From assembly GCA_963693285.1 (NCBI GenBank), contig OY848918.1, positions 1,409,001-1,473,000 of the forward strand: a DNA stretch of 64,000 bases, written 5' to 3'. Positions 1 through 59,346 of this stretch are shown one piece after another. The stretch's first letter is position 1. Each line of letters begins with the position of its first letter. This stretch comes from Xestospongia muta (Eukaryota > Porifera > Demospongiae > Haplosclerida > Petrosiidae). A program made the position numbers and the translations under genes. The notes under the pieces were generated by a model. It did no database searches, was not told where the DNA came from, and saw nothing but the letters and a program-made list of their open reading frames with translations.

Positions 1-131
1 ACTATCAGTACTTCTAGTGATGTCAGTCAACAATGCTTGATCTTTGTTACTGGTAATGTAACTAAAATATCGAAAGTTCTAATGATAATATCATTTCCAT
101 ACCTATATCACCAGTTTGTGAATTGCCCTCC

Positions 132-174
<43 letters not shown>

Positions 175-2290
175 AATTTGTCTCTTATATTTAAACTTAT
201 CAACAGATATACCACTAGTAGTTGATTCTATTGGTGCCGTGATACCAATAGTGTCAGTAGTATTAGCATCACAGAATGTCACATCACTTGAAGTAGTATC
301 TAATAAGGTAGTGTGATGTCATTGAACATCATAGTAGTAACTAATGAAATAACATGAATGATATACGATATAGTCAGTACATAGTACTTACTAATATTAC
401 TAAAAGTCTCAGTAGGAGATGGTAGTAGTAACATATACTCCAGTACTTGAGGGTACACAACAGATGGGTTGGTTATTATGGTACCATCTACTACATCATG
501 AGCTGTCACAGTATAGTTACCACTAACTGGTAGAGTTATATACTGGTATACTGTACTCTCCTCTATACTGGATTTACTCATATTAGACTTCGAGGTTTTT
601 TTAGAAAACTCTTTAAATATCACATGACATCCATCAGCAGTAGATCTCTCAGCAAACCTACACTCTACAACAACTGATCCACTATCAGAGTAATACTGTA
701 GAGTGAGTCCTTGAACATAATAGGTTGCTATATACATGTATTATATAGTGATAATGAATTATTATACATAATAATTACTCACAAAATAAGACACTATTTT
801 CATTCTTTGTGTTATTAAATAAATCCATAATTTGTATAATAAAAGTGTAGCTAAGAGAAGGATGTAGTGCAGTCATATTATAATATATTGTTGTTTTATT
901 AACACCAGTCACATTCTGTATGTTCACATTATCATTTGTTATACCATAGGTGAAAAGAACAATCAATCTGAAAAAAAATTTTATTATAAACATGTATTTA
1001 TAAATGTTTATTTGTCCTCATGTTGTTAGCAAATTGTGCCTAAACAAAAGAACTGTTTCCAGAGTTATTATGTTTCAAATCATGGCCAAGAATATTAACA
1101 GCATAATCTGATAATAGGTAACATTAAACAGATATAATTAATATAGTCTTACTTCCTATATTTGTTTGGTTATAATTGCAGCAAATTAACTGTATTGTTC
1201 AATGATAGCTGTGACACTAGCAGTATAAAATATCACAGTAGTTTGAGGATACTATGTAACAAATATAATGTATTAGTTGTGTTATCATCATTCTATTACA
1301 GAACCATATTAACAATAATATGATATGTTGTAATACTTCCTTGTGGAATATCATCAGAGTAAAATGATGGAGGAGACCAAGTTAAGGAAGGGTTTTTAGT
1401 AAAATTCAAGTTGAGGTGGTTGACAAGTGAAATACCATAATATTTTATAGTACAATTAATTTTTTTTCCGTTGATTAGGAGCAACTATTGACACTGACAA
1501 AGATATAAAGTAGAAACTACCATAAATACGTTTCACAAATTATGATAATAAGAAAATTTAATAGTAAATAATAATTAGATGATGTCATGGTTACAGGAGT
1601 CGATACATGGTACACTTTCATTTATGACTTAGTGTGACTCTTTAGGACTTAAAGTTTAGCAGTGTCTAAAATAGCATGTTAATAGCAAAGTATATTCACA
1701 TTTACTTTGACCATTTCAATAGCTTTATTATGTCTTTGTATTTACTCATATGACCATACTTTGCTAATGGACGATATAGCTAATTTTGGAAATGTCAAAA
1801 ATATTGATTATTAATTATACTACACTAATAGGAAGTACTATTGTGGTAAGTTATAATTGAAAATTAAACAAGAAAAGGCAAAGTTATGGTACAAATAAGG
1901 TCAAAGTTAATGTGATAGATTTTAGACAGAAAACTAGCTAATATTATGCATGACCCCCTGGGGTTTATAATCACTTTGAGGGGTTTTGCTGCCACTGTTC
2001 CATTAGTATCAAATTTCTTTTATCGTATATTAGTATTAATTATATAAATTACCTTTTACTGTTAAAACAGCTCCACTCTCATCTCAATCGAAGAACTGTA
2101 GCTAATTACAATACATTCAATATTTATTATGCTACAACCAGCAATAGGTAGTGCTCTTATAGTTAGTACTGATGACCACACATCAACTGATATATTGTTA
2201 GTAGTTACTGATATCTCTCTGTCTTGATTACTGGAATCAGTGAGTAAAGTTTCCCCCTACAGTATATCTCCTATACCTTTACAAGTAAAT
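1..2290 (-). pseudogene. L1: degenerate Ig/FN3 receptor copy, 3' part outside window
   Basis: Family exons can be recognised in order on the minus strand: Ig remnant (about 2285-2050), E3 remnant (1480-1300), E4 remnant (1120-1045), E5 (967-783), E6 (727-392) and a stalk exon (298-205). The E6 exon is open and normal. The Ig exon has a one-base insertion just before the conserved T-D-x-S-N-Q stretch and a second frame change near its end. E3 is cut short. E4 contains a stop. E5 lacks 47 bases at its start compared with its closest relatives, which removes the usual L-C-D-S segment and breaks phase. I read this as a decayed copy. The transmembrane exon and tail would lie left of the window. 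Assembly error is a less likely explanation for so many independent lesions. Confidence 0.7.
134..172. repeat. (TC)n microsatellite
   Basis: An almost pure run of CT dinucleotides lies in the presumed intron downstream of the L1 stalk exon. Confidence 0.95.
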
Positions 2291-4131: not shown

Positions 4132-6324
4132 TTATATTATAATATTTTCATAGTCAGCAGTACATGTCCTACTAGGTTGTACTGTTATATATGATGGATT
4201 AGTCTCTAACTCCACTCTTCTACTTCTCATCTCTAATCTGTGTACTATGTAATGATCATAATATGAACTATATAAAGTTATAATATGAACATAGTTACCT
4301 TCATCATATGCAGCATTATGAGTGATAGTTTGTTGATTAACTATAGAATAAAACCACTTGGAATAATTAATAATTTCTCACTCTCTCACCTCCAACTTCA
4401 TGTAGTTGATGTTTCTTCTTCAAATATACAATACTACTGACAACTAGACATATCACTATTATGACAGTTACTACTACCACACTAACTGTACTAGTGGTAA
4501 TGAGGAGAATAGTCTTATCAGTAGCTGTAATATTAATTAAAAAATGACATTAAAATATTTAATACATACTTACATGACACACTTGAATTTAAAGAAGATT
4601 CACAAAGATCTACAGATGTAGTTATGCTCCTATAATCACTACCTATCTTCTCAATTGATGTAGTACCTAATAAATTATTATAGAACAATACAAAACAGTA
4701 CAATATAATACTTACCAATAATAATAATAGTCTTAGTAGGAGATGGTAGTATTAAGATATATTCCAGTACTTGAGGGTACACAACAGATGGGTTAGTTAT
4801 AATAGTACCATCTACTATATCATGAGCTGTCACAGTATAGTTACCACTAACTGGTAGAGTTATATACTGGTATACTGTACTCTTCTCTATACTGGATTTA
4901 GTTATATTAATAGACTTCACAGTTCCTTTAGAAGACTCTCTAAATATCACATGACATCCATCAGCAGTAGATCTCTCAGCAAACCTACACTCTACAACAA
5001 CTGATCCATTATCAGAGTAGTAATGTACAGTGAGTCCTTGAACATGGTAGGTTGCTACAAAGAGAAAATATTGTTCATCCCTTAACAGAAATCATTTTGT
5101 GAACTTACTAAACATCATCTGATCTGAATTTATTGTTTTTTTCAAACTGTTTGTAATGTATATAGTAAAGTTATACTTCATAAAAGGGCTTAGGTCAGTT
5201 ATAGTATACTTGATCACTTGGTCAATATCAGTAATATTCACAGCTAGAAAATACTTATTGACGATCTCATTATTTTCTTTAACATTCTCAAACAAAACAC
5301 TATTACAAAGTTTAGGATAACTTTTGATCTAAAAATTAGTACACAATAAAGAGTTAAACTCATCTTATTACTTGCCATAATTTCAAATGTTCCATTGAAA
5401 TTGTCCCCATTTCTATCAAATATTACAATGTGATTCTTTATGCTAATATTATAATCTATACAGGTAACATAAAGAAGACCATAAATACTACAGCCTACCT
5501 CCATTATATTGATCTTGAGTGGTAACATTGTTAGAACTATATCCTTCACTATGAGCTATAAAAGTAGCAGTGTAAATATCACAGACTGTGAGGTTATATA
5601 ATTCATAAGATGTATCATTAGTGATATCATTATATAGTAACTGGCCATGTTGGTTCTCTATATAAATGTGATATGATAATGGGTAGTTCTCATGTGGATG
5701 CGACCAGGTCAACCAGCCAGAGAAATTAATAATATTAAAAGTAAATTGTAGGTCTTCTACTAGTACAATACCTGTTATTGAATTTACATAATAAAATTCA
5801 TACAAAAAACTAACCCTGGATTGTCAAAATGGCTCCTAATGATGCAATATCATAGTTTTGATCTATTAAAACACATCCAACATGTATTCCATCATTAGTA
5901 GGTAGTGCTCTTATAGTTAGTACTGATGACCACACATCAACTGATATATTGTTAGTAGTTACTGATATCTCTCTGTCTTGATTACTGGGATCAGTGAGTG
6001 AATTATCCTCTACTGTCCATGTTAAGACATTTCCTGTACCCTCACAGGTGAAGTTCACTAGTGTGTAAAGTGAAGTAGATACAGGTAAGGGAGCTACTGT
6101 GATATTAGCTGTAAGAAAACCAACAATTTCAAAGGTAATATAATTATATACATATATATATGTTAGTTAAAACGAGAGTTTGATTTATATTATGCTATTA
6201 TCCTGCCATTCTATTCAATCAACTACTATCATTAACCATTAACATCTGCATCTTTTAAAGTCAGTAGAAGGCTTCCTAATACAACAATAATGAGCTTTAG
6301 TGTCTCTTGGTCCATCAGAGGCAT
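4132..6324 (-). CDS. L2: Ig/FN3 transmembrane receptor, class A short tail
   Basis: Ten exons with agreeing phases give 558 codons: signal 6324-6237, Ig 6108-5815, E3 5771-5499, E4 5455-5376, E5 5328-5109, E6 5054-4716, stalk 4666-4574, TM 4524-4390, tail-a 4340-4299, tail-b 4244-4132. The Ig domain has both core cysteines (N-F-T-C and H-V-G-C) and the C-strand Trp. The TM exon is a long Val/Ile run followed by K-K-K-H. The tail carries N-P-S-Y and ends D-Y-E-N-I-I-I. The N-P-x-Y of tail-a in sister copies reads N-A-A-Y here. E4 needs a GC donor (GCAAGT) to stay in phase, and the signal exon has a weak GTTAAT donor. Many N-x-S/T sites suggest a glycosylated cell-surface protein. The ligand is unknown; an immune or self-recognition role is inferred from architecture and tandem context. 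Confidence 0.82.
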
Positions 6325-7103: not shown

Positions 7104-7312
7104 TTATATTATAATATTTTCATAGTCAGCAGTACATGTCCTACTAGGTTGTACTGTTATATATGATGGATTACTCTCTAACTCCACTCTTCTATTTCTC
7201 ATTTCTAATCTGTGTACTATGTAAGGATCATAATATGAACTATATAAAGTTATAATATGAACATAGTTACCTTCATCATATGCAGGATTATGAGTGATAG
7301 TTTGTTGATCAA
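7104..7312 (-). pseudogene. Orphan class A tail exon pair
   Basis: Tail-a (7312-7271, with N-P-A-Y-D-E) and tail-b (7216-7104, ending D-Y-E-N-I-I-I) are nearly identical to those of L2 and still open. No ectodomain, stalk or TM exon lies upstream before L3, whose own tail ends at 9447. The 54-bp intron between the two exons is itself open and in frame, so a read-through would add about 18 residues rich in tyrosine. The pair is probably what is left of a deleted receptor. It could also serve as an alternative 3' end for L3 transcripts, since L3 is the next gene upstream on the same strand. Confidence 0.6.
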
Positions 7313-7739
7313 CTATAGAAGAAACCACTTCACATAGATTTGTATCATCGCATGAAAGCTACCATTTTTTACCATGTAGAGTTTGATAGAACAGATCTGT
7401 CAGTATCCAGAACATTTGAGTTTCCATGTTGAAGGTTGATCCTAAAACAAGGTAAAGAAAGTATCTTAGCTAAAATCAGCAAGCCATGTGTGTTGTGTAA
7501 TTATTTTTCTTGGTTTTCCAAAAACTTTAATCAGATCTAGGATATCCATCTTCTTTCTTTAGAACTTTAGCATTTTCTATTTATCTATATATCATCAGAT
7601 GAGACTAGTAATAATTAATTATCACATATTTTATATTACCATTACACTCCAGCATATTGAGATGTATTCTTAATAATTTCTTATATATTTTTTCTTTTAG
7701 AAATATTGTGTTTTGTTTTGTTGCTACTTTCTGAGAAAA

Positions 7740-9680: not shown

Positions 9681-11976
9681 TGTGTTATCTTTTATACTGT
9701 TTAGGAAAATAGAATGTGACACATGTTAATTTTGGTTATATCACACTAAAGTGTGCATGTGTTGTTCACTTACTTCATCAGAGCTTATATGGTAATGATC
9801 AGTTCTGGTAGTAGTATTAATAAACGATGTGGCAGCACTTGTTAACATACCTGGATTTTCATAACTAATATAATTATATGTATATCATATGTTTTAATTA
9901 TGTATCATATATACTTGTTGTTATCAGCATATGAAGTTTGTACAACTGCTCTCTCTAATGGAACAAAAGGGAATGTATAATTTATGGTTACTGTACTACA
10001 CAGTGAGTATATACCTTGACTGAGTGTCATTGATAGCTTTTTTCTCCTCTGAATGATAAGACCACCAATAACGATTATCATCAAAAGTACAATCAGTACA
10101 ACTCCAGTAGTTACAACACTTAATATCAAGTAAAGATTCTCTGGAGCTATAACATATACTAGCAATTACAGTGAACTAACTTTATCTATTTAACTTACCA
10201 TTCAAAATTCCACTAGTAAATACTGCAGATGTAGTTATATTAATAGTACTAGTAATGTTAATAGAAAAGGTAATAGCGGTATCCATACCACTAATAATTT
10301 TGCTGATCAAAGAAATATTTCTTGTTGTACCATCTGTAAGTAATATAAACAACACAACATAGTCAATATACTACATACCAATTGCAACAACTGTCTCAAT
10401 AGGAGATGGTAGTAGTATGATATACTCCAATACTTGAGGGTACACAATAGATGGGTTAGTTATAATAGTACCATCTACTATATCATGAGCTGTCACAGTA
10501 TAGTTACCACTAACTGGTAGAGTTATATACTGGTATACTGTACTCTCCTCTATACTGGGTTTACTCATATTAATAGACTTGACAGTTCCTTCAAAAGACT
10601 CTCTAAATATCACATGACATCCATCAGCAGTAGATCTCTTAGCAAACCTACACTCTACAACAACTGATCCATTATCAGAGTAGTACTGTAGAGTGAGTCC
10701 TTGAACATGGTAGGTTGCTATAGTGCATGACGACAGTGAGCTACTAAAATGTCACAGCAATGAAAAGGACTTACTGAAATATGACTCATTCTTTACTTTG
10801 GAGTTATTAAAATAATCCAGTATATCAGCAATGAAGACATAGTTCAGTTGAGGACCAACATTTACCATAGTATACTTAACAGTCACTGACTCTCTATCTT
10901 CTGAAGAAGCAATTTTTCTTTCAACATACCTTGTTTCTGTTCTGCTATTCAGTTGTGAGTTTTCACTTATAATACCCACTAATGTGCTGTTACAAACTCT
11001 AGGACAACCTACAACCTGGACATAAAATGTAGCATAGATTCCATATTTTATTGTTAACTTACTATGACTTGAAATTCTATATCAAAAACACTATTATTCC
11101 TATTAAAGACAATCTTGTAATCAGGTAAGACAATAAGAAAATATTCTGTAATATGATCTATGGATAAATCTAAGTTGGCAAGTCATTAAAATCAATACCT
11201 CCACTAAACTCCTCTTGTATAGTTACATTACTAGAACTATATTCTCTACTATGAGCAATAATAGTAGCAGTGTAAATATCACAGACTGTGAGGTTATATA
11301 ACTCATAAGATGTATCCTCAGTGATATCATTATATAGTAACTGGCCATGTTGGTTCTCTATATAAATGTGATATAATATTGAAGTGTTCTCAGAAAAAAA
11401 TGATGGAGGAGACCATGTCACAATGGAAGACCTCTGTAGACTAAAACTAAATGTGAGGTTTTCTACTGGTGTGATACCTGTCATTGCAAAATAAAGTACC
11501 ATAACTACACAACTTTATTACAACCAAAACTAACCTTTAATGGTCAATATAGCTTTTTTCTGAGTAATATGATCTTTTGTATCAACAACAATACATCCAG
11601 CACTAATCCTATCATTAATAGGTAGTGCTCTTATAGTTAGTACTGATGACCATGCATCAACTGATATATTGTTAGTAGTTACTGATATCTTTCTGTCTTG
11701 ATTACTAGGATCAGTGACTGAATTACCTCCTACTGACCAGGACAATATGTCTCCTGTACCAACACATGTAAAATTAGCCAGTGTATAAAGTGGAGTAGAC
11801 ACTGATGAAGGTGCTGTTGTGATGTTAGCTGCAATTGGTAAAAATAATAATCTTGTCATTATTTGCTCTGCAGTGGCTGACCATTGTAACTTACAAGCAA
11901 TAGACGTTTCTCTTAGAGTAATAAGAACGGATACTAACACAACAGTACGAAGAACCATAGTATATGGATACCTCAT
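9447..11976 (-). CDS. L3: Ig/FN3 transmembrane receptor, class B tail cut short
   Basis: Exons with agreeing phases give 600 codons: signal 11976-11895, Ig 11828-11535, E3 11477-11199, E4 11145-11063, E5 11015-10775, E6 10717-10379, stalk 10333-10199, TM 10146-10015, then 9954-9915, 9864-9774 and last exon 9533-9447. A second Met seven codons downstream may be the real start. The 63-bp-class first intron is open in frame. After the TM run and I-Q-R-R-K-K come Y-E-N-P and a D-H-Y-H-I-S-S-D-E block shared with L5 and L11. The tail then ends in a glutamine run (Q six times) and a stop, far shorter than L5, L9 or L11. E5 is the subtype shared with L4, L9 and L10. The protein is probably a glycosylated surface receptor; the ligand is unknown. 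Confidence 0.78.
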
Positions 11977-12160: not shown

Positions 12161-13959
12161 ATGTCCATGATCTGGGTAGTTGTAGTCCAGAGTCTTTTGC
12201 TCACTTTAAGCGAGGCTGGTAAATAGTACAATACAAGCAGCTGTGTTATTAAGCTTTCTTCACACAGCTGAGATCACAGTAGCCCCTTCATCAATGGCTG
12301 TTCCACTTTTCACAGTGGTAAACTTTACCTGCATATGCACAGGAGATATATTGACATGGTCAGTACATGGTAATTCAGTCACTGATCCCAGTAATCAAGA
12401 CAGAGAGATATCAGTAACTACTAACAATATATCAGTTGATGTGTGGTCATCAGTACTAATTATAAGAGCACTACCTATTAATGATAAGATTTATGTTGGA
12501 TGTACAGTACTGAGTATTGGTGGAACTATTAGGAGCTTCTTTATCCGTTAAAGGTAATTTTTATAATCCTGTAATGTAATTTAATGACTTGCAGGTATTA
12601 CAACAACAGAAAATATCCAGCTAACTTTTTCTTTCATCAATTCTTCCTGGTTGACCTGGTCTCCTCCATTATTCTTTTCTGAGAAATATCCACTATCATA
12701 TCACATTTATATAGAGAACCAACATGACCAGTTACTATATAATGATATCACTAATGATACATCTTATGAGTTATATAACCTCACAGTCTGTGATATTTAC
12801 ACTGCTACTGTTATAGCTCATAGTGGAGGATATAGTTCTAACAATGTTACTATTAAGGATGAGTATTCTGAAGGTATGTTACAATTGATGTTGCATGTGT
12901 ATTTTAATTTATCATTATATTTCAGAGTATAATGTTATAATCTTACCTGAATATAATATCCTTTTTAACGAACTTAATTTCTTCAATGTATGTTTTCAAG
13001 TTACTGTGAGTAATAAAATTACAAAAACAATCTGAATTTAGCATATAAAATTGTATACTTCTAGGTTGTAGGTTATCTTAGACTATGTAATAGTATGTTA
13101 TTGGGTATTACAAAAGAAACCTTGCAGCTAAATGGAACAGAAATAGAACATACTCGTAAAAATATTGCATCTCCTTCTAAAGAGTCAGTAACTGTTAACT
13201 ATGCACTAACCAATGTCGTAACTCTAATGAAGCTTTTTTTTTATTGCTGATATACTGGATTATTTTAATAACTCTAAAACAAAGAATCTGTCAAGTTTTA
13301 GTGAGCTTATATTATTGTTGACCCATGTAATATATCATTAGTTTTATTGTTATAGCAACCTATCATGTCCAAGGACTCACTCTACAGTATTACTCTGATA
13401 ATGGATCAGTTGTTGTAGAGTGTACGTTTGCTGAGAGATCTACTGTTGATGGATGTCATGTGATATTTAGAGAGTCTTCTTAAGGAACTGTGAAGTCTAT
13501 TAATATAACTAAATCCAGTATAGAGGAGAGTACAGTATACCAGTATATAACTCTACCAGTTAGTGGTAACTATACTGTGATAGCTCATGATATAGTAGAT
13601 GGTACTATTATAACTAACCCATCTGTTATATACCCTCAAGTACTGGAATATATCTTACTACTATCATCTAATGAAATTCTTGGTAAAATCTATATTGTAG
13701 TAGTGTGTGTTATAATGTGCTATTATAGGTACTACCTCTCTGATCAGTAACATTATTATTATTACTAGTACAATAACATCTGTAGAACCTACTAGTGGAA
13801 TATCTAGTAATGGTAAAGTTAATGTGTATGTTGATTGATTGTTCATGTATTGTTCTAGGAACTGTTGTTTTGTTGATTATACCTGCTATAGTTGTAGTTA
13901 TAGTATTATATGTGTCAATACTTATTATTATTTTAAAGAGGAAGAGGAAGAAGAAGAAA
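12161..13959 (+). pseudogene. L4: inverted receptor copy with broken ectodomain
   Basis: This is the only family member on the plus strand. Signal exon 12161-12218 (start M-S-M-I-W, phase 1 end) and Ig exon from 12268 are followed by E3 (about 12595-12875), E4 (about 12925-13010), E5 (about 13064-13310), E6 (about 13355-13682), stalk 13729-13812 and TM exon 13859-13959 with a basic K-R-K-R-K-K-K-K end. Three lesions are visible. There is a one-base frame change near the end of the Ig exon. E5 is scrambled around a T run near 13,240. An AAA-to-TAA change makes a stop in E6 at about 13,481, where relatives read S-S-K-G-T. Donor and acceptor sites are otherwise kept, so the decay may be recent. 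Confidence 0.72.
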
Positions 13960-20200: not shown

Positions 20201-22022
20201 TAGTACTGTAAAGTGAGTCCTTGAACATTATAGATTGCTAGTTATAGTGATAATACAAAAGTCATTGGGACATACATCATATAACTGTTAACTCACAAAA
20301 TATAACCTCAGCTTTATTGTTTGTGTTTTTATATAAATCCAAAACTAATGCAGTAAATGTATAATTAAGAGAAGGACGTAGTCCAGTTATATTATAATAA
20401 ACTGTTTTTTCATTAACATCAGTAACATTCTGTATGTAAACAGAATGATGAATTATAGTCTCATTGTTCACATTATCCTTTGTTATACCATATACGATAC
20501 TATCACATAAGTGAGGAGAACAACTGATCTAGAAAATTTTAAATATGTATGAGCATATGGTTATAAACATTAGTTCTTACATTGACAGGAAATTGTACTT
20601 CTATAGAACTATTTCCAGACTTTTCAAATTCCACAATATGTTCAAGTATATCAATAGTATAATCTGATATATAACAATACATTAAATGGATAATTGTAAT
20701 AATCTTACTTCTAGTATATTGTTCAGTAATAGTTGTAGCAAGTGAACTGTATTGTTCAATAAAAGCTCTAACACTAGCAGTATAAATACCACAGTCTGTG
20801 AGATTACTAGGTAACTGATAGAATGTATCAGTTGTATTATCATCTACTATTATAGAGCCATCTTGATTCTGTACAATAACATGATATGTTGCAATATTTT
20901 CTCGTGGAATATCATTGGAGTAAAATGTTGGAGAAGACCAGGTTATGAAAGGTTTATCAGTAAAATCCAAATCAAGGTCATTGATACATGAAATACCTAT
21001 AAAATTTATATTATAGCTGACAGGTTTATTCTTATGTTTTTTTATTTACTTGCTTGCCTTTATCACATTCTTAGTAGAATAAAACTGAATTTCAATTATT
21101 TTATTCATCATGAAGTAATTAAACAATATTATTTTCAAGAAGTTTATCTTAACATTTCTTTTAAAATTACACTCTTCATTGATAAAGTGGATATTGACAA
21201 TAGCAAAATATTTGATGTAGAGTTTTTAATGTTCCAAGCAATTTAACTGAGTTTAGTAAAATCACTGAACAAAAGGTTTTTTACAAGCCTACTTCTATTG
21301 ACTATATCACTGTAAAAATTAATATGTTATTTTAACAACTAATTTGTAGTTTAACCATATCCTCTAAATACTGATGCATATAGTAACCAATGAATTTTAT
21401 TAACCCTAACTGTGAGCAATGACAAATTGACAAATTGTAACTGATAGTGCTCAAAGCTTCTTGCTACTTTACTTTTCTGCCTATATTTCTATAGCTATTA
21501 GTCTTTGGTAGACACTGATGCTAAATATACAATCTTGTAGCTCTAGTCGGTGCTTTACTGTAAAGTAGGTTATTTTTTCAATTATCTTGTTTAGTTTACC
21601 TTTGACAATTAAGGTAGCTCCTTTCTGTTTTAAATCAAGAGGATTATAACTAATCACAGTACACTGAACAGTTATCCCATCATTAACAGGTAGTGCTTTT
21701 ATAGTTAGTACTGATGACCACACATCAACTGATATATTGTTAGTAGTTACTGATATCTCTCTGTCTTGATTACTGGGATCCGTAACTGAATCACCCTGTA
21801 CTGTCCATGACAATGCAACTCCTGTTCCCTCACAAGTAAAGTTCACCAGTGTATAAAGTGGAGTAGCAACTGACGAGGGAGCTACTAAGATGTTGGCTAT
21901 ATGAAAGGGAAGCAAACACGAAAACAGATAACAAAGACTATTTATGGAGTGTGTTGCTTACCAGAAACGTCAGTCTTTTTCCAAATAAGAAACAGATTCA
22001 CTAAAACAGTCAGAAAGATCAT
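17274..22022 (-). CDS. L5: Ig/FN3 transmembrane receptor, class B long tail with ITIM-like motifs
   Basis: Exons: signal 22022-21962, Ig 21896-21600, E3 20996-20709, E4 20663-20581, E5 20528-20297, E6 20237-19899, fused stalk+TM 19855-19622 (in phase only with a GC donor, GCAAGA), then about eight tail exons down to a stop at 17274. The whole protein is roughly 1,000 residues, close to half of it cytoplasmic. The tail holds Y-E-A-I-P, C-H-I-S-P-D-E, and in the exon near 18,420-18,210 two spaced motifs, C-Q-Y-A-E-I and V-Q-Y-S-V-I. The second fits the ITIM pattern [S/I/V/L]-x-Y-x-x-[I/V/L], so recruitment of SH2 phosphatases is plausible but inferred. The last exon contains D-F-W-G-T-P-K-K. 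The ectodomain is the subtype shared with L6 and L11. Confidence 0.75.
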
Positions 22023-23960: not shown

Positions 23961-24093
23961 GAATTGGGTTCTGGGAGGAAACAGGAAGATCAGAATTGAA
24001 GATCCTACCACCATATCTCCCAATATAAGAACTATCAAGATAGAGGTCAAACTGTTGTTTCCATGAAAGAAATATCTTATCTTGTGGTAGTAG

Positions 24094-45400: not shown

Positions 45401-46800
45401 TCACAGTATAGTTACCACTAACTGGTAGAGTTATATAGTGGTATATTGTACTCTCCTCTATACTGGATTTAGTTATATTAATAGACTTCACAGTTCCTTT
45501 AGAAGACTCCCTAAATATCACATGACATCCATCAGCAATAGATCTCTCAGCAAACCTACACTCTACAACAACTGATCCATTATCAGAGTAGTACTGTAGA
45601 GTGAGTCCTTGAACATGATAGGTTGCTATGGTGATATGATTTTGTTATACAATATAAGAGTTGAACTCACTAAAATTGAACTCATTCGTTGTCTTAGACT
45701 TATTAAAATGGTCCAATATATCAACAATGAAGATATAGTTTAATTGAGGACCAATAATTGAAACAGTATAGTTAACTGTCACTGATTCTCTATCTTCTGA
45801 TGAACATACAATATCTTTACGAATGTGTTCTTTTTCTGTTCCATTCAGTTGTAGTCTTTCTTTTGTAACACCCAGTAATGTACTGTTACAAAGTCTAGGA
45901 TAACCAAAAACCTATACATACCAATATAATATATTAAATTAGACTATTGTTTTCTTACAGTAACATTGAAACCAGCATTAAAGGAATCATGTTTATTACA
46001 GATGATCTTATGATGAAGTAAGACAGTAACATTCTCTGTAATGTAATAGTATATAAATAAACAAGTAATTAATGTACTTTCATTATATTCATCTTGAATT
46101 GTGGTACCACTAGAACCATATTCTCCACTATGAGCTATAACAGTAGCATTGTAAATATCACAGACTGTGAGGTTATATAACTCATAAGATGTATCATTAG
46201 TGATATCATTATATAGTAACTGGCCATGTTGGTTCTCTATATAAATGTGATATGATAGTGGATAGTTCTCAAATGGATGAGACCAGGTTAACCAAGAACT
46301 GGTGATGTTAAAAGAAAACCAGAGGTTCTCTACTGGTGTGATACCTGTCATTGAATGACATCACATACACAGACTACATAACACTAACCATTAATTGTCA
46401 AAGTAGCCTCTTTATGATCAACATCAAGGTTTTGATCTAAAACAAGACAATGAACACTTATTCCATCATTAATAGGTAGTGCTCTTATAGTTAGTACTGA
46501 TGACCACACATCAACTGATATATTGTTAGTAGTTACTGATATCTCTCTATCTTGATTACTGGGATCAGTGAGTGAATTATCCTCGACTGTCCATAACAGT
46601 TTATCTCCTACACCCACACAGGTAAAGTTACCGAATCTGTAAAGTGAAGTAGTAACAGGTGAGGGAGCATCTGTAATAACTACGGAGAACGACTTATAAA
46701 CTATTTTATAACACTGTCATTTACCTGCGGCATCTGCCTCTCCCAGAGTGAACATAAGATACCCTAGAACAAATATAATAAGCCTCTGTTTTCTTATCAT
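42434..46800 (-). CDS. L9: Ig/FN3 transmembrane receptor, class B long tail
   Basis: Exons: signal 46800-46725, Ig 46679-46389, E3 46344-46078, E4 46035-45959, E5 45911-45671, E6 45625-45287, stalk about 45223-45143 (acceptor chosen to keep frame; the more upstream AG gives a stop), TM 45086-44970, then tail exons down to a stop at 42434. After the TM run and Q-R-M-R-K-E-Q come Y-E-D-S-P, S-S-Y-D-N, S-P-T-Y-D-E-L and V-P-Y-I-Q-E-T. One exon repeats a Q-G-M-D/E motif twice. At the position of the L5 motif V-Q-Y-S-V-I this copy reads V-Q-H-T-F-I, so the tyrosine is lost. E4, E5 and adjoining introns are nearly identical to L10. A MITE sits in one tail intron. Confidence 0.74.
43415..43699. mobile_element. 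285-bp MITE with perfect 10-bp TIRs and 5-bp TSD
   Basis: The ends are CATAGGCGTA (43415-43424) and TACGCCTATG (43690-43699), exact inverses. CAATT lies directly outside both ends (43410-43414 and 43700-43704). The interior near the left end holds C/G runs (ggggggct ... agcccccc) able to fold. It lies in an intron of the L9 tail and has no ORF, so it is a non-autonomous DNA element. Confidence 0.85.
44600..44735. repeat. Low-complexity palindromic ATGCATAC/TGGA tract
   Basis: Short words such as 'atgcatac', 'catggatggatgg' and 'tgcatgcatgcatg' alternate so that much of the tract can pair with itself. It lies in an L9 tail intron. Confidence 0.85.
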
Positions 46801-47510: not shown

Positions 47511-49606
47511 TCATATTATAACATTTTCATAATCAGCAGTACACATACTAGGTTGTACTACAGTATATGATGGATTAGTCTCTAACTCCATTCTTCTCAT
47601 CTCAAATGTATGGACTACATAATGATAATAATGAATGCACACTAACAAATAACAAAATACCTTCTTCATATGCAGGGTTATTAGTAATAGCTTGCTGATC
47701 AACTATGAAATTAATGTATGTATGTGGTTAATTATTTAGCTCATAATATATCTCATTCTCTGACCTCCAATATCATTATGTTGACTTTGAATTCTCTTCT
47801 TCCTCAAGTAAACAGTAACACAAGTGACTATTACTATTATAACAACACTAATTGTACTAGTAGTAGTAATGAGGAGAATCATTTGATATGTAGCTGAGTT
47901 TTTAGAAGACGACAATGATAAATATAATGGATGTTATACTTACATAATTTATTGAGAGAAACATTGGATTCAGAAGGTACAGAAGATTCTACAGATGTTA
48001 TTATGCTATTACTATCACAAACAAGATATGGTCTTGATGTAGTACCTAGTAAGATATCATGTAACCAATACATTTGAGCAATACTAATACATACTAGTAA
48101 TAGTCTCAGTAGGATATGGCAATAGAAAGATATATTCCAGTACTTTAGGGTACACAACAGATGGGTTAGTTATAATAGTACCATCTACTATATCATGAGC
48201 TGTCACAGTATAGTTACCACTAACTGGTAGAGATATATACTGGTATACTGTACTCTCCTCTATACTGGATTTACTCATATTAATAGACTTCACAGTTCCT
48301 TTAGAAGACTCTCTAAATATCACATGACATCCATCAGCAGTAGATCTCTCAGCAAACCTACACTCTACAATAACTGATCCATTATCAGAGTAGTACTGTA
48401 GAGTGAGTCCTTGAACATGATAGGTTGCTATGGTGATATGATTTTGTTATACAATATAAGAGTTGAACTCACTAAAATTGAACTCATTCGTTGTCTTAGA
48501 CTTATTAAAATGGTCCAGTATATCAACAATGAAGATATAGTTTAGTTGAGGACCAATATTTGAAACAGTATAGTTAACTGTCACTGATTCTCTATCTTCT
48601 GATGAACATACAATATCTTTACGAATGTGTTCTTTTTCTGTTCCATTCAGTTGTAGTCTTTCTTTTGTAACACCCAGTAATGTACTGTTACAAAGTCTAG
48701 GATAACCAAAAACCTATACATACCAATATAATATATTAAATTAGACTATTGTTTTCTTACAGTAACATTTAATTCTATAGCTACATCAAAAGAATGATTA
48801 TAAAATATAACATTATAATCAAAAATAGTAATATACTCTGTAAAATAATTAATAATTAATAAACAATTTATTAACATACTTCCATTGTATTGATCTTGTG
48901 TGGTAACATTACTAGAATTATATCCTCCACTATGAGCTATAACAGTAGCAGTGTAAATATCACAGACTGTGAGGTTATATAACTCATAAGATGTATCATT
49001 AGTGATATCATTATATAGTAACTGGCCATGTTGGTTCTCTATATAAATGTGATATGATAGTGGATAGTTCTCAAATGGATGAGACCAGGTTAACCAAGAA
49101 GAACTGGTGATGTTAAAAGAAAACCAGAGGTTCTCTACAGGTGTGATACCTGTCATTGAATGACATCACATACACAGACTACATAACACTAACCATTAAT
49201 TGTCAAAGTAGCTCCATTATGATCAACATCAAGGTTTTGATCTAAAACAATACATTGAACACTTATCCCATCATTAATAGGTAGTGCTCTTATAGTTAGT
49301 ACTGATGACCACACATCAACTGATATACTGTTAGTAGTTAATGATATCTCTCTGTCTTGATTACTGGGATCAGTAAGTGAATAACTCCCTACTGTCCACA
49401 ACAGTTTATCTCCTATACCCATGCAGGTAAAGTTAGCCAGTGTGTAAAGTGGAGCAGTCACTGGAATAGGAGCATCTGTTATAGCTATATTAACAAAACC
49501 ACACATGATGAAATGATTTCCTAAACTTACTTGCACCATTTATAGACCAAGGTATGATGATAATTATCACAAAAACGTTTTTCAGGATGACCACAGTCAC
49601 CATCAT
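47511..49606 (-). CDS. L10: Ig/FN3 transmembrane receptor, class A short tail
   Basis: Ten exons agree in phase and give 554 codons: signal 49606-49531 (two adjacent start Mets), Ig 49484-49194, E3 49149-48880, E4 48837-48761, E5 48713-48473, E6 48427-48095, stalk 48045-47944, TM 47893-47765, tail-a 47702-47661, tail-b 47614-47511. The TM run ends Y-L-R-K-K-R. Tail-a has N-P-A-Y-E-E; tail-b has N-P-S-Y-T-V-V and ends D-Y-E-N-V-I-I. The ectodomain is the L9 subtype, with E5 and its flanking introns differing at only about three positions in 335 bp, but the tail is the other class. This is the clearest pair of like ectodomains with unlike tails in the array. Confidence 0.83.
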
Positions 49607-50419: not shown

Positions 50420-52470
50420 AGTACCACTGTAGAGAAAACAGAATTATATCATTTATGACTTTAAGAGTTAATTGAGTTTTATATATAATAATCATCACTA
50501 GTACTTCATTATAAACTATATCAATACTGTATATTAATTGAAGCTGACTATGCCCAGCTCATCCCATATAGTGATGTCATCATAGAAGTCACACCTATGA
50601 GATATCACTTAATATGTGAGACCATTTGTCATCACAAACCATGATATATAGTGTAATCCAATAATCTATATATTCTACAATATACAATACATGTACACTA
50701 TATATCACTACTAGTGGTATTATTATCAAGGTACATACAGATAATTTATACTTAGTTATAATAGCACCATCTATTATATCATGAGCTGTCACAGTATAAC
50801 GATGATAGATCAAAATTACAAACATTAAGTACTTATGTAGTATACAGTATGTCTGAGTTGATATATGTTTTGATGGTTTCTATGTATTATGGCAGAACAT
50901 TTTCCATATGCACTTCTCCTACTAAGTGCATTATGTGTGTACAAGTATTATTGTCACTTGTTTTGATGTCAGTATGTCCCAACAATAAGCAAATTTGTTC
51001 ATTTTTAGTCTAATTGCAGGGCTAATGGGTACTTCAATGTAAATAACAATGTGATATTCAAATACATCAAGTCAACATGGACATACATGTAAACTACATT
51101 ATCTATTAAATATGAACATGACCATTTGTTTATTGGAGGTATACTTTTATTGCTATCTACATGTATTAATTGGCTATTTACATATGAGAACAGCTTATAT
51201 AGAATCTGAGCACTGAGGTATCAATAACTTCCAGCAAAAACAATTATTCTTATAATTAAAAGTTATTTTGTTTGAAATAACTATTTATTGTGAAAGAATT
51301 TATTAATATTAACATTTACTGGACAAGTTTCAATTCTAAGTGTTAGTGGATGTGTTCTAAATGATGGCAGATATTTTCTATGTGATTTATATGAACATGA
51401 AACTGAACAATCACATTTCTTCATTAACACTTTAACTGTTATCTACTTCCTCTGTTATCATACATGAATCTTGTTTGATCTATATATGCTTTGCTGATTT
51501 CCTTATATGATAGAATTATATGGTTATAATAACATGACAAATAGATACTCATAAACCAGATGGTATTGACAGTTCTTACTAGTGTACTTATATTTTTATG
51601 TGTTAGAACTTGATCTGATAACAACAATTAAGATGTAATAGAACTAGTACCTTCTCCTGATCTAGTGAGGGAGGGAGGACTTGTATTGTTGATATTTCTC
51701 TATATATTGTGATGTCAATAGACACAACTACCATTTAAATATATTGAATTAATCTTGGTTCATGTTGGTTTTAATTTAGCTAAAAGATTATTTTAGTTTG
51801 AGAGATGATGTTGTACTCTTAATATGACATTATATAAATGTATATTAATACTATAAGTTACATTTATTTTATTTGAATGGAAGTACATAATTCAAACACT
51901 AAACATTTATGATACCCTATATATAAACTAGACAAGTATAAATACTAACTATCAACTTTACAATATTATCTCTTATATTTGCATCAATATGTGCATTCTA
52001 TTTCACTTAGTCCTGTAGAATAATGTTAGAAACTATCACAAACAATTACAACAATTGATTTTGATGGCTGTATTATTTTGGCTAACAAGGAACAGAGCTA
52101 GAAAAGTAATTCCTTGCCTTCATACAACTTGTGTTGGATTTTATATTTTATTGGTTAATTTGCAGATTATGGAGAAAAGATACTTCATCTGGTACATGTA
52201 TCTCAAAATATCTTTGATGTTCTTTTCACTCCAAGTGGCTACATACCATGTGCACTAATGGTTACTACACATAACATGACATCATGATGCATTATTTTAA
52301 TTTATAACGTTATTAACGTTTCACAAAATTATAAAGAAAATTGAAAGGGAATACAGAATATGATTACTACATTCTTTATTATAACATCTCAGTTACTGCA
52401 ATAATGACAGAAGAGATATTATTTAATAGAGATATTTGACAAGTGGGACAAAGTATACATTATTTAGACA
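50420..52470. other. Mostly non-coding stretch with family fragments
   Basis: It contains a short E6 fragment (listed separately), a possible G-family scrap near 51,640-51,670, and otherwise AT-rich DNA without supported exons. Confidence 0.5.
50744..50800 (-). pseudogene. Fragment of receptor exon E6
   Basis: About 57 bp encode Y-T-V-T-A-H-D-I-I-D-G-A-I-I-T, the core of the conserved membrane-proximal module, with no flanking exon sequence. A leftover of a deleted copy. Confidence 0.7.
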
Positions 52471-52479
52471 TCGAACTTT

Positions 52480-53233: not shown

Positions 53234-56200
53234 CTAGAAAGCAGCCTCGGAGAGAGACACATTACTTTTATCTGACTCAGTACAAGGTTGTATTTCTTCC
53301 CCGACATCAGTATTATCAGTAACTTGAACAGGAAATTCAGGTAGTTTGTCATTTATGGCTAATGAATTTACTGGGAGGGACATTGCATCTATCGAAGATG
53401 TTTCATTAGTTGATCCAGTAGCTACAGTATCTGATAATTCAATGGATTCCAGTCTTGCAGTACTTGAGTTTGTTTGTAGTCTTTTAACTAAAGAAGACAA
53501 TGATAGAATGACAAACAATTAATTGGATATCTTACAGTCATCAGTGATTGAACCAGGTTCCAATTCAGATTGGTCAGATTTGCTGCTATTAATGCCCTGA
53601 ACTCTATCAGAATTATTACAAACATCTGTAGATTCAGAGATATACTCCATTGATGATGATTGTATTGTTTTCAGTGCAATAGTGACCATTTCCTATATGT
53701 AAGAGAAAACATATTGTCTTAACAGATCTACAACATACAGAATATTCTTCATGTTTGTTGCTTGAATTAGTTCTACACACCAATTGAGATTCTGATATAT
53801 ATGACAGTTCTTGACACTGATCCTACAATGAATGATATGTAAACTTGATCCCATATACATAATAAATTAATATCATGTGCAAGAAAAATAATTAACTTAT
53901 TCTATTTCTACTTAATCCTTACTTCCTTCAATTCTGAATGAGGTTTCTCTTTAATGTTGTCATTGGATGACATCTTTTTATATTCAGCCTAGAGAAATTA
54001 ATTACATTGATGACTATGAATAACATATTCTCAGAAGAGTAACACTATTTACCAAACAGTAACAAATAAAAACAACTATTAATCAGAGACATAAGAGTTA
54101 AGACAGAAATTACTATTACAATATTGACACATAAATCAACTTTACGTGACAAGATCTGAGGTCACATGTTATAATATCCATGTAAAAATTGTCTAGATTT
54201 TTAAATAAAGTATAGGGCCCCATTTGTATCAAAATTGGAAAATTATCATGATATATTAAATAAGTTATTATTTATTAAATAACTCTTGATTTACTTCTTA
54301 TTTATTTAAAAATCAACTCAAGGGCAGCATTATTTTTGATACCATACAGAGAGAGGGAAGACTACTATTTGAGGACGGCAGAGACTTTTCAAGGAAATAT
54401 TTGACAATAATAAATATTATTATGTTCAATAAACACATTTATGTCATACATATTTTGTATATTATTAATGCTCGCATTTTCTAGCTTCAGCAACAAAAAA
54501 ATTGTTGAAACTATTAATAATAATGATAATATCAATGTCATAAGTTACTATTAACATAGTAACTTAATGCTTTCACTAGTTATATATAATTCATTAGCTA
54601 GGGATAGTCCATGATGTAATATAACATGCACTATGTTTATTGTTCATATAAATGGTACAATATAAACTATTAGTATTACATTATAAAGTAGAGTACATAC
54701 CTCATCATGACTTGTATGGTAGGAATCAGATACTACTGGAGTAGTTGAAGTTAACTGAGGTATATCTTCATAACTAATACAATAATAGTAATATCTGATA
54801 GTGTTATGATAATGATGTACTAGTAACATACCTATTGTTATAGGCTTGTTGATAATGTACTCTTGGCCTCTCTATTAATAGAAATGTAAAGTGAATAAAT
54901 TACTATAGTAACTACACATACCTTTAATGACTGTTATTGATTGTTTCTTCCTTCTCCTCTGAGCAATAACACATAGATATGGTATCACAGATACTATCAT
55001 CAGTATCAGTAAAACATTAGCAACTAGTACACTGAGTATCAAATACAAATTTCCTGCAACTATAAGTAATCATCAGTGTGTGCACTAAATCTTACCATTA
55101 TTAGATATTCCACTAGTAGGTTCTACAGACTTCATTATATGAACAGTATTAGTAATGTCACTAGTCAAGGAGACTGCATTTACAAGTGACGTTGTACCTA
55201 GTAATTAATGATAAAACAACAAACTTTTAATAAATCATACTGTTGCAAGGGTATGAAAATTTGAGGTTTAATTTTCATGTTTTACCTTTCAGTTAGTTAC
55301 CATTAACAATAAAATTTGTGGGTCTTAAAATTTAAGTGTACAAGTTGTGGTTGCAGTTAGGTCAAATATTTTTGTAAACAGACTAAAGAACATTTATTTT
55401 ATAAAATGTGTAATATAATATTATACTACAGTATAATAAAAACAGACTTCTAAGATTAACAACAGTGGGAATTTGTGATTGCAACTATCAAGTCTTTCAA
55501 GCAAGATACAACACTGTCAACATACCAGGTCTATAATCACTATATTAAACTCATTTATAACAACTTTGAAACAAATAGGTATATTTAAAGTAGCCTGTAT
55601 ATTTTTAATTTAATGAAACAAGAATATCCCCCACAAAACATTAAAATTAAATGCAAATTTAATCCCCATAAAATTAGTACCTTTGTGGAACTTACCAACG
55701 AGAATAGTAGTCTCACTAGGAGATGGTAGTAGTAAGATATATTCCAGTACTTGAGGGTATACAACAGATGGGTTAGTTATAATAGTACCATCTACTATAT
55801 CATGAGCTGTCACAGTATAGTTACCACTAACTGGTAGAGTTATATACTGGTATGTTGTACTCTCCTCTATACTGGATTTAGTAATATTAATAGACTTTAC
55901 AGTTCGTTTAGAAGACTCTCTAAATATCACATGACATCCATCAGCAGTAGATCTCTCAGCAAACCTACACTCTACAACAACCGATCTGTTATCAGAATAG
56001 TACTGTAGAGTGAGTCCTTGGACATGGTAGGTTGCTATGAGAGTATAAAAAAATTGAGTAGGACAATGCTCCAATTGACTTACAAAATATGACATGATCT
56101 TTATTCTTTGTTGAATCAACCAAATTATCAAGTGATGCAGTAAAAACATAATTGAAAAAAGGTTGTAGACCAGTTATGTCATAACATATAGTTATTTGAT

Positions 56201-59200
56201 CATCTTTAGTACTGCTGATGTAAACAGGATCATAAGATATAGTGTTATTGTTCACATTATCTGTTGTTGTACCATATATCATAACATTACATAGCTGAGG
56301 AGAGCAAGTGATCTAGAAATAGTTAAAATTTATCAACACAAGTAATTAAAAAGCTTAGTTCTCACATTGATAGGAAATTGTACTTGTATTAAAGAGCCAT
56401 ATTTGGTGCTATTAAATTTTACAACATGGTCAAGTATATCAATAGTATAATCTGATATATAACAATACATTAAATGGATAATTGTAATAATCTTACTTCC
56501 AGTATATTGTTCAGTAGTTGTTGCAACAAGTGAACTGTATTGTGAGGTAAAAGATTTAACATTAGCAGTATAGATACCACAGACTGTGAGGTTACTAGGT
56601 AACTGATAGAATGTATCAGTTGTATTATCATCTACTATTATAGAACTGTTTTCACTTTTAACAATAACGTGATATGTTGTAATAGTTCCTTGTGGAATAT
56701 CCTCAGAATAAAATGATGGAGGAGACCAAGTTAAGGAAGGGTTATTAGTAATATCTAAATCAAGGTGGCTGACAGGTGAAATACCTATAAAATTTATAAA
56801 AAATAAAATTAATGGTATTACTGATAGTTTTACCACACAAAACAAACACAACTGGTTCAGATTACATTTAGCTGTCCACCAGTGAAATTTGAGCTTCTTA
56901 AATGACATCGTCAGATTATTAATAATATATATTGCTTACTAGAAAGTCAAGCCAGATCAAGTAATTGTTATAGTTAATTAATGAAACTATTCTAACATTC
57001 AGTTATCATACCAGCATGTAAAACAATGTACATTAAACTACATATATAATACCATTGACATAACTCTAGCAAAAATTAAACTGGACATAACATCTCAAGA
57101 TTTGACCCTTCAACTAAATAATATAAAATATAAAATGTTCTCTTCCTTAATCTTTCTTTATTTCCTCCATTATCTTCAATGAACAACTCTCTTCTTTCTA
57201 CTCTTTCACTTGTCATTCATACAATGCTGTGCTTACTACTTATAAAGAGAAGCTGTTACATTGACTGAAGTATAATCAAATAAAATATGGAATGAAGTAC
57301 ATGTGTCATCCAAATTGTCCATCAACACCACCAATATAAGATGCTCAGGCACATTCCACAATTAAAGAGGTGTGGTCTTATGGAGCATTATATAGGAAAA
57401 TATGCATTGATCAATTTTTATTACTGTTTGTGACTAGTAAAGGCAAATAGCAAAATAACTTGTAGCTAAACATGCCACAATTAATAAAAATATCTCTGTA
57501 TCAAGATTTCACTCCATTCAGAATTCAGATCTTCACACAAATATTCCTAGTATTATATGTTTATTGTTAAAGTATTTAGTATTCATCAATTTCTAATGTG
57601 GAATATAACAACAAATCAACGACACACTTGTATAGAGACATAGTTATATGTTCAAAATGACACTGTTCTAATAATTTGAGTACTATTTTTATACCATACC
57701 CCATTAATTAAAATAGGGAGAAGGTTACAAGTGCTGGGTGTCACAATAATCTTGCAAATAGGTAATGTCATAGTATGCTATAAACACAGATATGTTATAA
57801 CTCTTTTTTGTGCCAGGCAGTCCTATAATCATTTTGGACCATGTGTTATGTATTTATGCATACACGCACACACACACACATTGACACTGGCAATCAAAAG
57901 AGTTTAGACATCCATGTATTTCTCATTAAAACAGTACTTAAGCTTATCTACTTAGACAAAGCACAGTACTTAATAGAACATCTTACAGCTCTTTAGTTAT
58001 ATCTATAAAAAGCTGTTTACACAAGAGCAATTAGAACAGTGATCAAAAATTTGTTTGTTCTGATAAAAGCTGGATTAAAATGTCAGGAGATCAAGAAGGA
58101 AGCCACTATTACTGTCATGATATAAAAGACAACAGCTTCAATAGGCAAATGATCACAGGGAGTGGACAGAAGACTTGTGAAAGAAGTTACATCACCTGAT
58201 GAGTCCAAGCTTAATAATCTCTTCCATAGTGATGGTTGAAGATACATATGACACAGGCTATCAGAAGAGTTTAACGAGAATTGCGTACAAGGTATAGTAA
58301 AGCATCGTAGTGGTAGTGTGGACTATCTAAGACAATGAAAAGTGTATGTTAGTACAAGTTAAAGGCAAGATGGATAGATTTCAGTATTTAAAAATACTAG
58401 AATTTACAATAATTTTATCAGCCTGGTTAATAAGAGGGTTGGACTATGTCTTCTTAGATGATAACATCTATTGCCATAAGGCTCATCTAATAACAGATTG
58501 GATGGATGAAAATGATGTTAATCATACTACAGGGTTGGCACAATCTCCAGACTTAAATCCAATAGAGAACTTTATGGGACTATTTTGAGAGGAAACTAGA
58601 AAAACCCCGGTAACAGACACACACACACACACACTGACAGACTACAGTACCCTCACTATGTGCCCACGCACAGCGAGGTTAAATATACATATTACAAGGT
58701 TAGCTACAGTATACACACACACACATATATATACGTATTTGTATATGTATACACACATAAATATATTTCTAATATTCTATAGTCTTCAATAGACACTGGT
58801 GCTAATTACACAACCATTATAGCTCTAGTCAGTATCTTCCAAAACAATTGTAGGATGATCTTTTTTAAAATATAATCTCATTAATTTAATTTACCTTTGA
58901 TTGTTAACGAAGCTCCCTTTTGTTCTACATAAAAAGGATTAGAACTGATCACAGTACATCCAACACTTATCCCATCATTAATAGGTAGTGCTCTTATAGT
59001 TAGTACTGATGACCACGCATCAACTGATATATTGTTAGTAGTTACTGATATCTCTCTGTCTTGATTACTAGGATCAGTAAGTGGATTAGCCCCTACATTC
59101 CACCTCAGTACATCTCCTATACCCTCACAGGTGAAGTTAGCCAGTGTATAAGGTGAAGAAGTAACCGACGTCGGAGCTACTGTGATCACAGCTGTAACGA

Positions 59201-59346
59201 AAGGGAAGCAAACATGAAGCAGATAATACAAACTATTTTATGGAGTTGTGTCTCTTACCAGCGACATTTATCTCTTCACAAGTAAGTAGGAGAGTCGCTA
59301 AGACAGTCAGAACAATGGTAAAAGCCTTCTCTTTCTTACAAGCCAT
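53234..59346 (-). CDS. L11: Ig/FN3 transmembrane receptor, class B long tail
   Basis: Fourteen exons agree in phase and give 746 codons: signal 59346-59259, Ig 59191-58895, E3 56784-56497, E4 56451-56366, E5 56312-56084, E6 56034-55696, stalk 55197-55096, TM 55059-54922, then 54871-54832, 54773-54701, 53988-53923, an exon near 53,823-53,740, an exon near 53,697-53,538, and 53487-53234. The TM run ends A-Q-R-R-R-K-K-Q. Tail tyrosines include Y-E-D-I-P, D-S-Y-H-T-S-H-D-E, A-E-Y-K-K, L-S-Y-I-S-E and M-E-Y-I-S-E. The 2.1-kb intron between Ig and E3 is unusually long and holds a Tc1 remnant. Ectodomain subtype is shared with L5 and L6. It is the first gene of the array in its own direction. Confidence 0.8.
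56900..57870. other. Non-coding part of the long L11 intron
   Basis: No exon or repeat family was recognised apart from an (AC)n run at about 57,864-57,880. Confidence 0.5.
57880..58640 (+). mobile_element. Tc1/mariner transposase remnant
   Basis: On the plus strand, pieces in several frames resemble a Tc1-like transposase: a helix-turn-helix-like start near 58,070, a middle part near 58,200-58,330, and a catalytic C-terminal part at 58,346-58,588 with A-Q-S-P-D-L-N-P-I-E-N. Several stops interrupt it. It lies in the L11 intron opposite to the gene's direction. The terminal inverted repeats were not resolved; CA-repeats lie near both ends. Confidence 0.72.

Follow-up and report, generated by a model that had tools for sequence, protein, structure and literature searches.

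Our analysis places a 64,000-nucleotide stretch of the Xestospongia muta genome (contig OY848918.1, referred to as C2, positions 1,409,001-1,473,000; hereafter the window) within what is, judging from its sequence, almost certainly a large family of tandemly arranged single-pass type I receptors, laid out in two clusters on one contig and equipped with two interchangeable kinds of cytoplasmic tail. The window has a GC content of about 31% and belongs to a genome of 158 Mb in 28 contigs. We consider it probable that these genes form a recognition system of the paired kind, in which the outer segments vary, gene conversion operates among the copies and signalling runs through the two kinds of tail, classes A and B.

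Profile searches of the window reading frames revealed a recurring unit on the minus strand, in the order Ig, FN3, E4+E5 and E6, followed by transmembrane (TM) and tail exons. The window holds nine full-length E6 exons, eight of which belong to copies (g2-g9) that are open in Ig, FN3, E5 and E6. The count of about eleven copies, eight of them open, given by an initial annotation of this DNA was therefore fair, since g1, an inverted copy and fragments come in addition. When the signal, Ig, FN3, E4, E5 and E6 exons of g3-g8 are spliced, all six products, of 428-439 residues, are free of stops. The complete copy, g6, ends at a stop codon and encodes a type I receptor with a signal peptide, Ig, FN3, a split FN3, an FN3-like E6, a TM segment and a tyrosine tail (signal and TM segments were called by hydropathy alone throughout). 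Introns are in phase 1 except between E4 and E5, where the phase is 0, and one of the eight introns of g6 starts with GC, at the E4 donor. For each exon type, AG and GT (or GC) stand at the matching position beside the exon in most copies; as the exon finder picks the nearest in-phase AG/GT, these dinucleotides are partly there by construction, and their recurrence among copies is the independent support. The exon plan that the initial annotation had proposed to be shared does recur across copies. At the protein level, E6 of eight window copies is 86-93% identical to that of g6. A reading of the units as alternative exons, as in Dscam, was ruled out, successive copies having signal and TM exons of their own and several their own stop. 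The copies and fragments found in the window are the following, in window positions:

399..2256, minus strand: g1, degraded; full E6 at 399-725, with E5, FN3 and Ig partial (profile searches)
4135..6324, minus strand: g2; signal 6324-6237, Ig 6108-5815, FN3 5771-5499, E5 5328-5109, E6 about 5054-4716, TM 4528-4391, class A tail 4341-4135; for E4 the arrangement of g6 is assumed by resemblance, its donor read off the translation, not computed
7107..7313, minus strand: orphan class A tail 1 and tail 2 exons, with no TM exon of their own found in profile searches
10013..11958, minus strand: g3; signal to E6 open, 439 amino acids; class B-like TM 10156-10013; the E4 acceptor is one of three candidates
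12267..13687, plus strand: inverted broken copy with Ig, FN3, E5 and a stop-containing E6
17517..22022, minus strand: g4; signal to E6 open, 432 amino acids; TM 19718-19620; class B tail 18498-18208 and 17846-17520
27257..29695, minus strand: g5; signal to E6 open, 438 amino acids; TM 27633-27496; class A tail, with tail 1 at about 27439-27404 (weak match) and tail 2 at 27364-27257
30522..32677, minus strand: g6; complete, nine exons, 527 amino acids, class A tail; GC donor after E4
34505..34630, minus strand: FN3 fragment (profile search)
37365..37565, minus strand: exon of a second, diverged E6-like type, found also at 49903-50145, with fragments at 6477-6578 and 32773-32892 (profile searches)
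42461..46800, minus strand: g7; signal to E6 open, 430 amino acids; class B-like TM 45084-44968; eroded class B tail, in pieces at 43356-43210 and 42646-42461
47514..49603, minus strand: g8; signal to E6 open, 428 amino acids; TM 47897-47772; class A tail 47703-47514
50739..50822, minus strand: E6 fragment (profile search)
54920..59346, minus strand: g9; Ig 59191-58895, FN3, E4, E5 and E6 open; class B-like TM 55063-54920; possible signal ATG at 59346, the position at which the initial annotation had set its right-hand limit

The domain assignments confirm an array of receptors with an Ig/FN3 ectodomain, a single TM segment and conserved tyrosine tails, and the copies have the make-up of immunoglobulin superfamily (IgSF)/FN3 type I receptors, with Ig and FN3 domains behind a signal peptide, one TM segment and a cytoplasmic tail. 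Of 22 copies of the FN3 exon, 21 match Pfam fn3 at E≤0.1, the strongest at 5.6e-7, and the exon matches the FN3 structure of RPTP-F at 1.8e-4. The E5 profile resembles an FN3 domain of neogenin (3.4e-4), and E4+E5 are therefore read as a single FN3 domain split by the phase-0 intron. Since Pfam matches of the Ig exon are weak (Ig_3 in 4 of 22 copies, I-set in 2 of 22), the Ig call rests on the structural model together with a conserved C-W-C pattern. The one confident model out of five (mean predicted local distance difference test score, pLDDT, 75) is an Ig sandwich, closest to LRIG1 (2.7e-4), LRIG3 (3.0e-4) and the Ig of PTP-delta, in a range that extends to 4.8e-4. E6 had no match above cut-off in family scans; its model is a beta sandwich (pLDDT 70.8, predicted TM-score 0.67) for which FN3 domains head a mixed Foldseek list, the best being Tencon, which we take to be an FN3 design, at 2.1e-3, with none at or below 0.001.

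The family extends far beyond the window, and the array is about ten times bigger than the initial annotation had seen. Using E6 as a probe, we obtained at least 145 genome matches at E≤0.001; 150 of 251 candidates were scored, so that all E6 counts are lower bounds. Of the 118 analysed among these 145 matches, at least 102 span 98 or more of the 110 positions free of stops, which we count as full-length and open; they fall into two clusters on C2. Cluster 1 (1.115-1.865 Mb, 749 kb) holds at least 66 E6 exons, 63 of them on the minus strand, with a median spacing of 7.2 kb; cluster 2 (2.865-3.224 Mb, 358 kb) holds at least 36, 21 on the plus and 15 on the minus strand, with a median spacing of 7.6 kb. 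The 27 matches left out are fragments and remote matches, but among them are a copy on C3 that is full-length and open, with 78% identity, and a distant one, with 29%, at C2:4.22 Mb. The number of E6 exons is not a number of genes, because some of those at 1.10-1.30 Mb sit in incomplete copies; DNA was read beyond the window over these 200 kb of cluster 1 and over another 29.5 kb in three pieces. A second subfamily was noticed on the plus strand in the same cluster as the main type, with E6 exons only 24-27% identical to the latter (L007:2926-3261, L009:9021-9353, L016:6947-7282 and L017:4513-4848). Dense runs of I-set Ig exons at C5:0.92-1.33 Mb, C5:4.66-4.74 Mb and C7:0.30-0.67 Mb mark separate large IgSF arrays (150 of 1,733 candidates scored).

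Two kinds of tail follow the TM segment. The class A tail, with the motifs NPxY, YxxV and YExI, is short: an NPAY exon precedes a last exon in which NPSYxxx and motifs like ADYENI occur (13 tails listed, two of them partial). Its last exon matches 57 places in the genome at E≤1 and 52 at E≤0.001, three with a stop; all 52 are on C2 except one on C3, and four matches lie at 1.02-1.04 Mb, beyond the E6 clusters. The class B tail is long and carries QYxxV/I and VQYxxI; it matches 19 places at E≤1 and 14 at E≤0.001, all on C2. Patterns resembling the immunoreceptor tyrosine-based inhibition motif (ITIM) are found in it at the motif level: VQYSVI, VQYIGI, SQYITV and SQYTTV, in four of the eight matches listed. 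Within the window, g2, g5, g6 and g8 end in class A and g4 in class B, and a class B-like TM segment is present in g3, g7 and g9. The description of the copies as tyrosine-tailed stands for g2, g4, g5, g6 and g8; the distal tail of g7 looks eroded, and g3 and g9 are assigned as far as the TM exon. Both FN3 subtypes are found with both TM/tail kinds, and ectodomain and tail therefore reassort; g7 and g8, for instance, have otherwise similar ectodomains, with a class B-like TM segment in the former and a class A tail in the latter. No basic residue is present inside the TM stretch of g2 or g6. Similar ectodomains thus stand on distinct tails within one cluster, a feature of paired receptors, although the roles of the tails are predicted from their motifs.

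A genome search for SH2 domains identified paired SH2 domains within single frames. Four such frames have the order SH2-SH2-PTP, three in tandem on C3 (L030, C3:11955501-11962500) and one on C5 (L031, C5:8740001-8743500), and all four contain Y_phosphatase and two SH2 stretches. The C5 frame, the sole one compared, matches SHP-2 at 1.6e-196, and one SHP-type phosphatase is 77% identical to its counterpart in Amphimedon, 61% to that in Ephydatia and 60% to that in Dysidea. SHP phosphatases are general in animals. The genome thus contains an effector of the ITIM type, whose pairing with the tails described above is putative. The first of the three C3 tandem copies reads VQCSNGVGRTG at the place where the C5 copy has VHCSAGIGRTG. 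Clusters of SH2-containing frames were also seen at C8:6.53-6.58 Mb and C6:0.115-0.237 Mb.

We then compared the copies block by block, keeping 23 of the 32 E6 exons above 165 bits (9 came without a full upstream exon set); 21 of the 23 genes are from cluster 1. Along Ig, the proportion of synonymous differences (pS) falls from 0.46 in the first part to 0.13 in the middle and is 0.44 again at the F-G end; the two parts of FN3 have 0.47 and 0.22, E5 has 0.564 and E6 has 0.072. In the same order, the proportion of nonsynonymous differences (pN) was 0.24, 0.08, 0.31, 0.32, 0.14, 0.35 and 0.05. The ratio of these proportions ranges from 0.52 to 0.72, the difference between them being indistinguishable from zero in E6 and mid-FN3. 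In 20 compact units, taken from the 26 E6 above 150 bits, aligned introns are 0.41-0.59 identical, as against 0.80-0.98 for E6. For E6 the p-distance inside cluster 1 equals that between the clusters, at 0.057 (cluster 2 contributes 2 of the 23 genes); mid-FN3 is uniform in cluster 1 only, with 0.115 within and 0.380 between clusters.

E6 distances correlate with those of none of the six other blocks (Mantel test, 499 permutations), and the nearest neighbours of a gene in E6 match those in each of these blocks no more often than chance allows (1-4 of 23 genes); Ig-N and E6 agree in one gene of 23, which 454 of 500 permutations reach. Nearest neighbours do agree between Ig-N and FN3-N (13 of 23), Ig-N and Ig-end (11) and Ig-end and E5 (10), values that no permutation out of 500 reached. 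Tract edges can be sharp: g7 and g8 differ at 3 of 241 positions in E5, at 35 of 77 in E4 and at 43 of 76 in the signal exon. Gene conversion, acting most widely on E6 and mid-Ig, would be the simplest account, because these blocks are uniform even at synonymous sites, the adjoining blocks and introns are diverged and the E6 genealogy is discordant; selection would hold the outer segments apart. That the uniform blocks are kept by purifying selection, at the amino acid or nucleotide level, is improbable: E6 is also the most conserved block in Amphimedon, by a small margin, but its synonymous sites are near-uniform here too, it is equally uniform between and within clusters, its nearest neighbours conflict with all other blocks and the g7/g8 edges are sharp. 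The recent pair of copies at L029 was dropped as evidence of conversion specific to E6: it differs at 1 of 297 positions in Ig, 27 of 330 in E6 and 40 of 511 in introns, so that E6, FN3 and introns all differ by about 8%, E6 no less than introns, and the pair attests a shared Ig tract only. Positive selection seen as pN above pS is unsupported over any block. In E6 codons 16-75, pN equals or exceeds pS in most 15-codon windows, with few synonymous changes (rows with stops were dropped from the codon-window set, as were Ig and E6 rows below 50% identity).

The initial annotation had suggested searching sponge proteomes with the predicted ectodomains and was aware of no sponge cluster reported in this form. 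The direct search gave 5 proteins and the profile search 24, about 8,000 candidates being scored in each, and all are uncharacterised proteins of Amphimedon queenslandica, among them LOC109585247, LOC109585793 and A0A1X7TVB1; identity to g6 in the direct search is 31-32%. Together with the SHP identities given above, these matches support a sponge source well, while at such values Amphimedon queenslandica itself was rejected as the source; Terpios hoshinota is unlikely to be it, given a GC content of 40.85% (PMC12465263) against about 31% in the window. No receptor relatives were returned from Ephydatia, Dysidea or Oscarella, although their SHP proteins are in the same database; with about 8,000 candidates scored, absence is not proven. 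Full-text searches of the literature on sponge recognition found no description of this family; subscription journals are thinly covered there, and an earlier description is possible. The Amphimedon proteins have the identical Ig-FN3-FN3-E6-TM order and both tail kinds, but the 24 protein entries found contrast with at least 102 E6 exons here. They are probably clustered as well, because five entries cite an 86,552-base contig, probably one and the same, and their gene numbers are close. Among the 13 of the 24 proteins examined, four have NPAY-type tails (P0002, P0003, P0013 and P0016), six have long VEYxxV tails (P0001, P0005-P0008 and P0010), those of P0001 and P0007 looking alike, and three have neither kind; SAYTTV and VEYxxV are the ITIM-like motifs. 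Mean identity among the 13 proteins is 0.62 in E6, 0.60 in Ig-N, 0.59 in FN3-N, 0.56 in Ig-C and 0.26 in E4+E5. In P0006 a P-loop-like stretch below threshold is seen at the C end, and P0010 seems similar by eye; these are possibly fusions of gene models.

How such an array might work can be outlined. The membrane-distal part of the receptor (first half of Ig, its F-G end, the start of FN3 and E4+E5) would bind varied ligands, and the membrane-adjoining E6 would be a constant module, serving for example in dimerisation or in contact with a co-receptor common to the copies. Once the receptor is engaged, class A tails (NPxY, YxxV, YExI) would recruit phosphotyrosine-binding (PTB) and SH2 adaptors, class B tails (ITIM-like SxYxxV and VxYxxI) would recruit the SHP-type phosphatases encoded in the genome, and the cell would balance activating against inhibitory input. 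Germline gene conversion among copies would move tracts between genes and create new specificities, keeping E6 and mid-Ig, and mid-FN3 within cluster 1, uniform, and selection would keep the outer segments different.

Several observations weigh against this account. The class A tails are not canonical ITAMs (immunoreceptor tyrosine-based activation motifs) or ITIMs: most read NPSYxxx, the canonical form of g6 is exceptional, and no YxxL/I pair, as in an ITAM, is present in the 13 tails listed. The idea, derived from g6, that class A tails are ITIMs was ruled out, NPSY being the usual form among those tails. Four of the eight class B matches listed have the ITIM pattern, which also occurs in Amphimedon ectodomains. 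Outer segments are not always spared conversion, because the L029 tract takes in the variable part of Ig, and the Mantel test finds Ig-N uncorrelated with every block, contrary to the nearest-neighbour result. Diversifying selection is unsupported by codons, as pN exceeds pS over the whole length of none of the blocks. In Amphimedon, where Ig-N, Ig-C and E6 have similar identities, Ig is not seen to alternate between uniform and variable blocks. The Foldseek list for E6 also contains sugar hydrolases and SoxYZ. Finally, the main text of an Amphimedon graft transcriptome study contains none of the terms immunoglobulin, Ig-like and fibronectin (PMC5450542).

As to function, the initial annotation had called this a candidate recognition locus. 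Immune-type recognition in general is indeed the likelier role, and such a locus is preferred over structural adhesion because of the copy number, the two reassorting tail kinds and the mosaic exons. What would be recognized is a more tentative matter. One possibility, which we take seriously without expecting it to prevail, is a germline innate repertoire for telling apart pathogens, symbionts and the bacteria taken as food, without any role in self-recognition. In invertebrates, germline arrays that are large and variable often serve against microbes, and the anatomy of this one (its size, the structure of g6, its tail kinds) would fit equally well; no known microbe-binding domain was found above cut-off in the ectodomain exons scanned, and nothing in the data separates microbe recognition from allorecognition.

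Allorecognition in particular is conceivable, and we would advance it with caution. A polymorphic locus at which individuals compare receptor alleles or haplotypes on contact is a doubtful proposition: the mosaic ectodomains and the analogous Alr and fuhc loci, clustered IgSF genes with tyrosine motifs in the parts of the sources available (PMC11999971, PMC12065747), argue for it; against it, the roughly hundred units here exceed the 41 Alr genes reported in the first of these. It is similarly speculative that a self/non-self locus, with paired Ig-FN3 receptors numbering around a hundred or more and varied by block-wise gene conversion, decides between fusion and attack through ITIM-SHP versus NPxY/YxxV signalling. 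Structural or developmental adhesion molecules, of the RPTP/contactin-like Ig-FN3 sort and expanded without a recognition role, are an unlikely explanation, since a hundred or so copies, two tail kinds and mosaic outer domains over a near-uniform inner one would be unusual for them, even if the nearest solved folds include Ig and FN3 domains of the adhesion-type RPTP-F, neogenin and PTP-delta.

Other elements share the window. Pieces of a retroelement, which we take to be of the BEL/Pao class, lie at 23032-26024, upstream of g4, with a DUF1759 match and a weak DUF1758 one; frames of a MULE/ZSWIM-type transposase occupy 63086-63999; and a tandem array of a 141-base unit in 14.7 copies spans 37591-39628, in an interval of strong AT skew.

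The molecules of sponge allorecognition are unresolved, and the array offers a concrete and testable candidate for discrimination between self and other. It combines at least 102 open E6 exons, tail kinds common to a second sponge and SHP-type phosphatases, in a phylum that branches close to the root of the animals. Uniform and divergent blocks alternate within single exons, which also makes it a clear natural case for studying conversion against divergence in receptor diversification. A 2025 review, in the part available, traces ITIM/ITAM-based allorecognition 'from cnidarians to mammals' (PMC12065747). If true, the self/non-self reading would carry the logic of ITIM-SHP versus NPxY/YxxV back to the sponge lineage.

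Comparison with known systems shows likenesses of different kinds. Sponge aggregation factors, which are Calx-beta proteins, are candidates for cell recognition in sponges. None of the 60 Calx-beta matches in the genome lies on C2, and a link with these factors was ruled out; a Calx-beta stretch ahead of the Ig in Amphimedon P0016 falls below the curated cut-off. Tandem Calx-beta frames at C10:186-220 kb are a candidate aggregation-factor-like locus. Hydractinia Alr genes, in the sections of the sources available, are likewise clustered IgSF receptors with tyrosine motifs in their tails (PMC11999971, PMC12065747), but here FN3 domains dominate and the single Ig is distal. No sequence relation to Alr was seen, both database searches having given Amphimedon only, and Alr was not directly compared. 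The FcoR receptors of the Botryllus fuhc locus, as far as the accessible text describes them, are type I proteins of 520-610 amino acids, encoded by paired genes, with an Ig ectodomain and ITIM or hemITAM tails (PMC12065747). They resemble the present receptors in topology, Ig ectodomain and tyrosine-motif tails, and differ in carrying Sushi and C2 Ig domains where the sponge receptors have FN3, and in belonging to a different phylum.

With the vertebrate paired receptors KIR, LILR and SIRP the likeness lies in the working plan, and homology is not claimed. These families place similar ectodomains on different signalling tails, form tandem arrays and undergo gene conversion; their ectodomains are Ig-only, and their activating forms have charged TM residues and adaptors. 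Without claiming membership in Alr, KIR or any other named family, we propose by analogy that the sponge array would work as paired receptors do.

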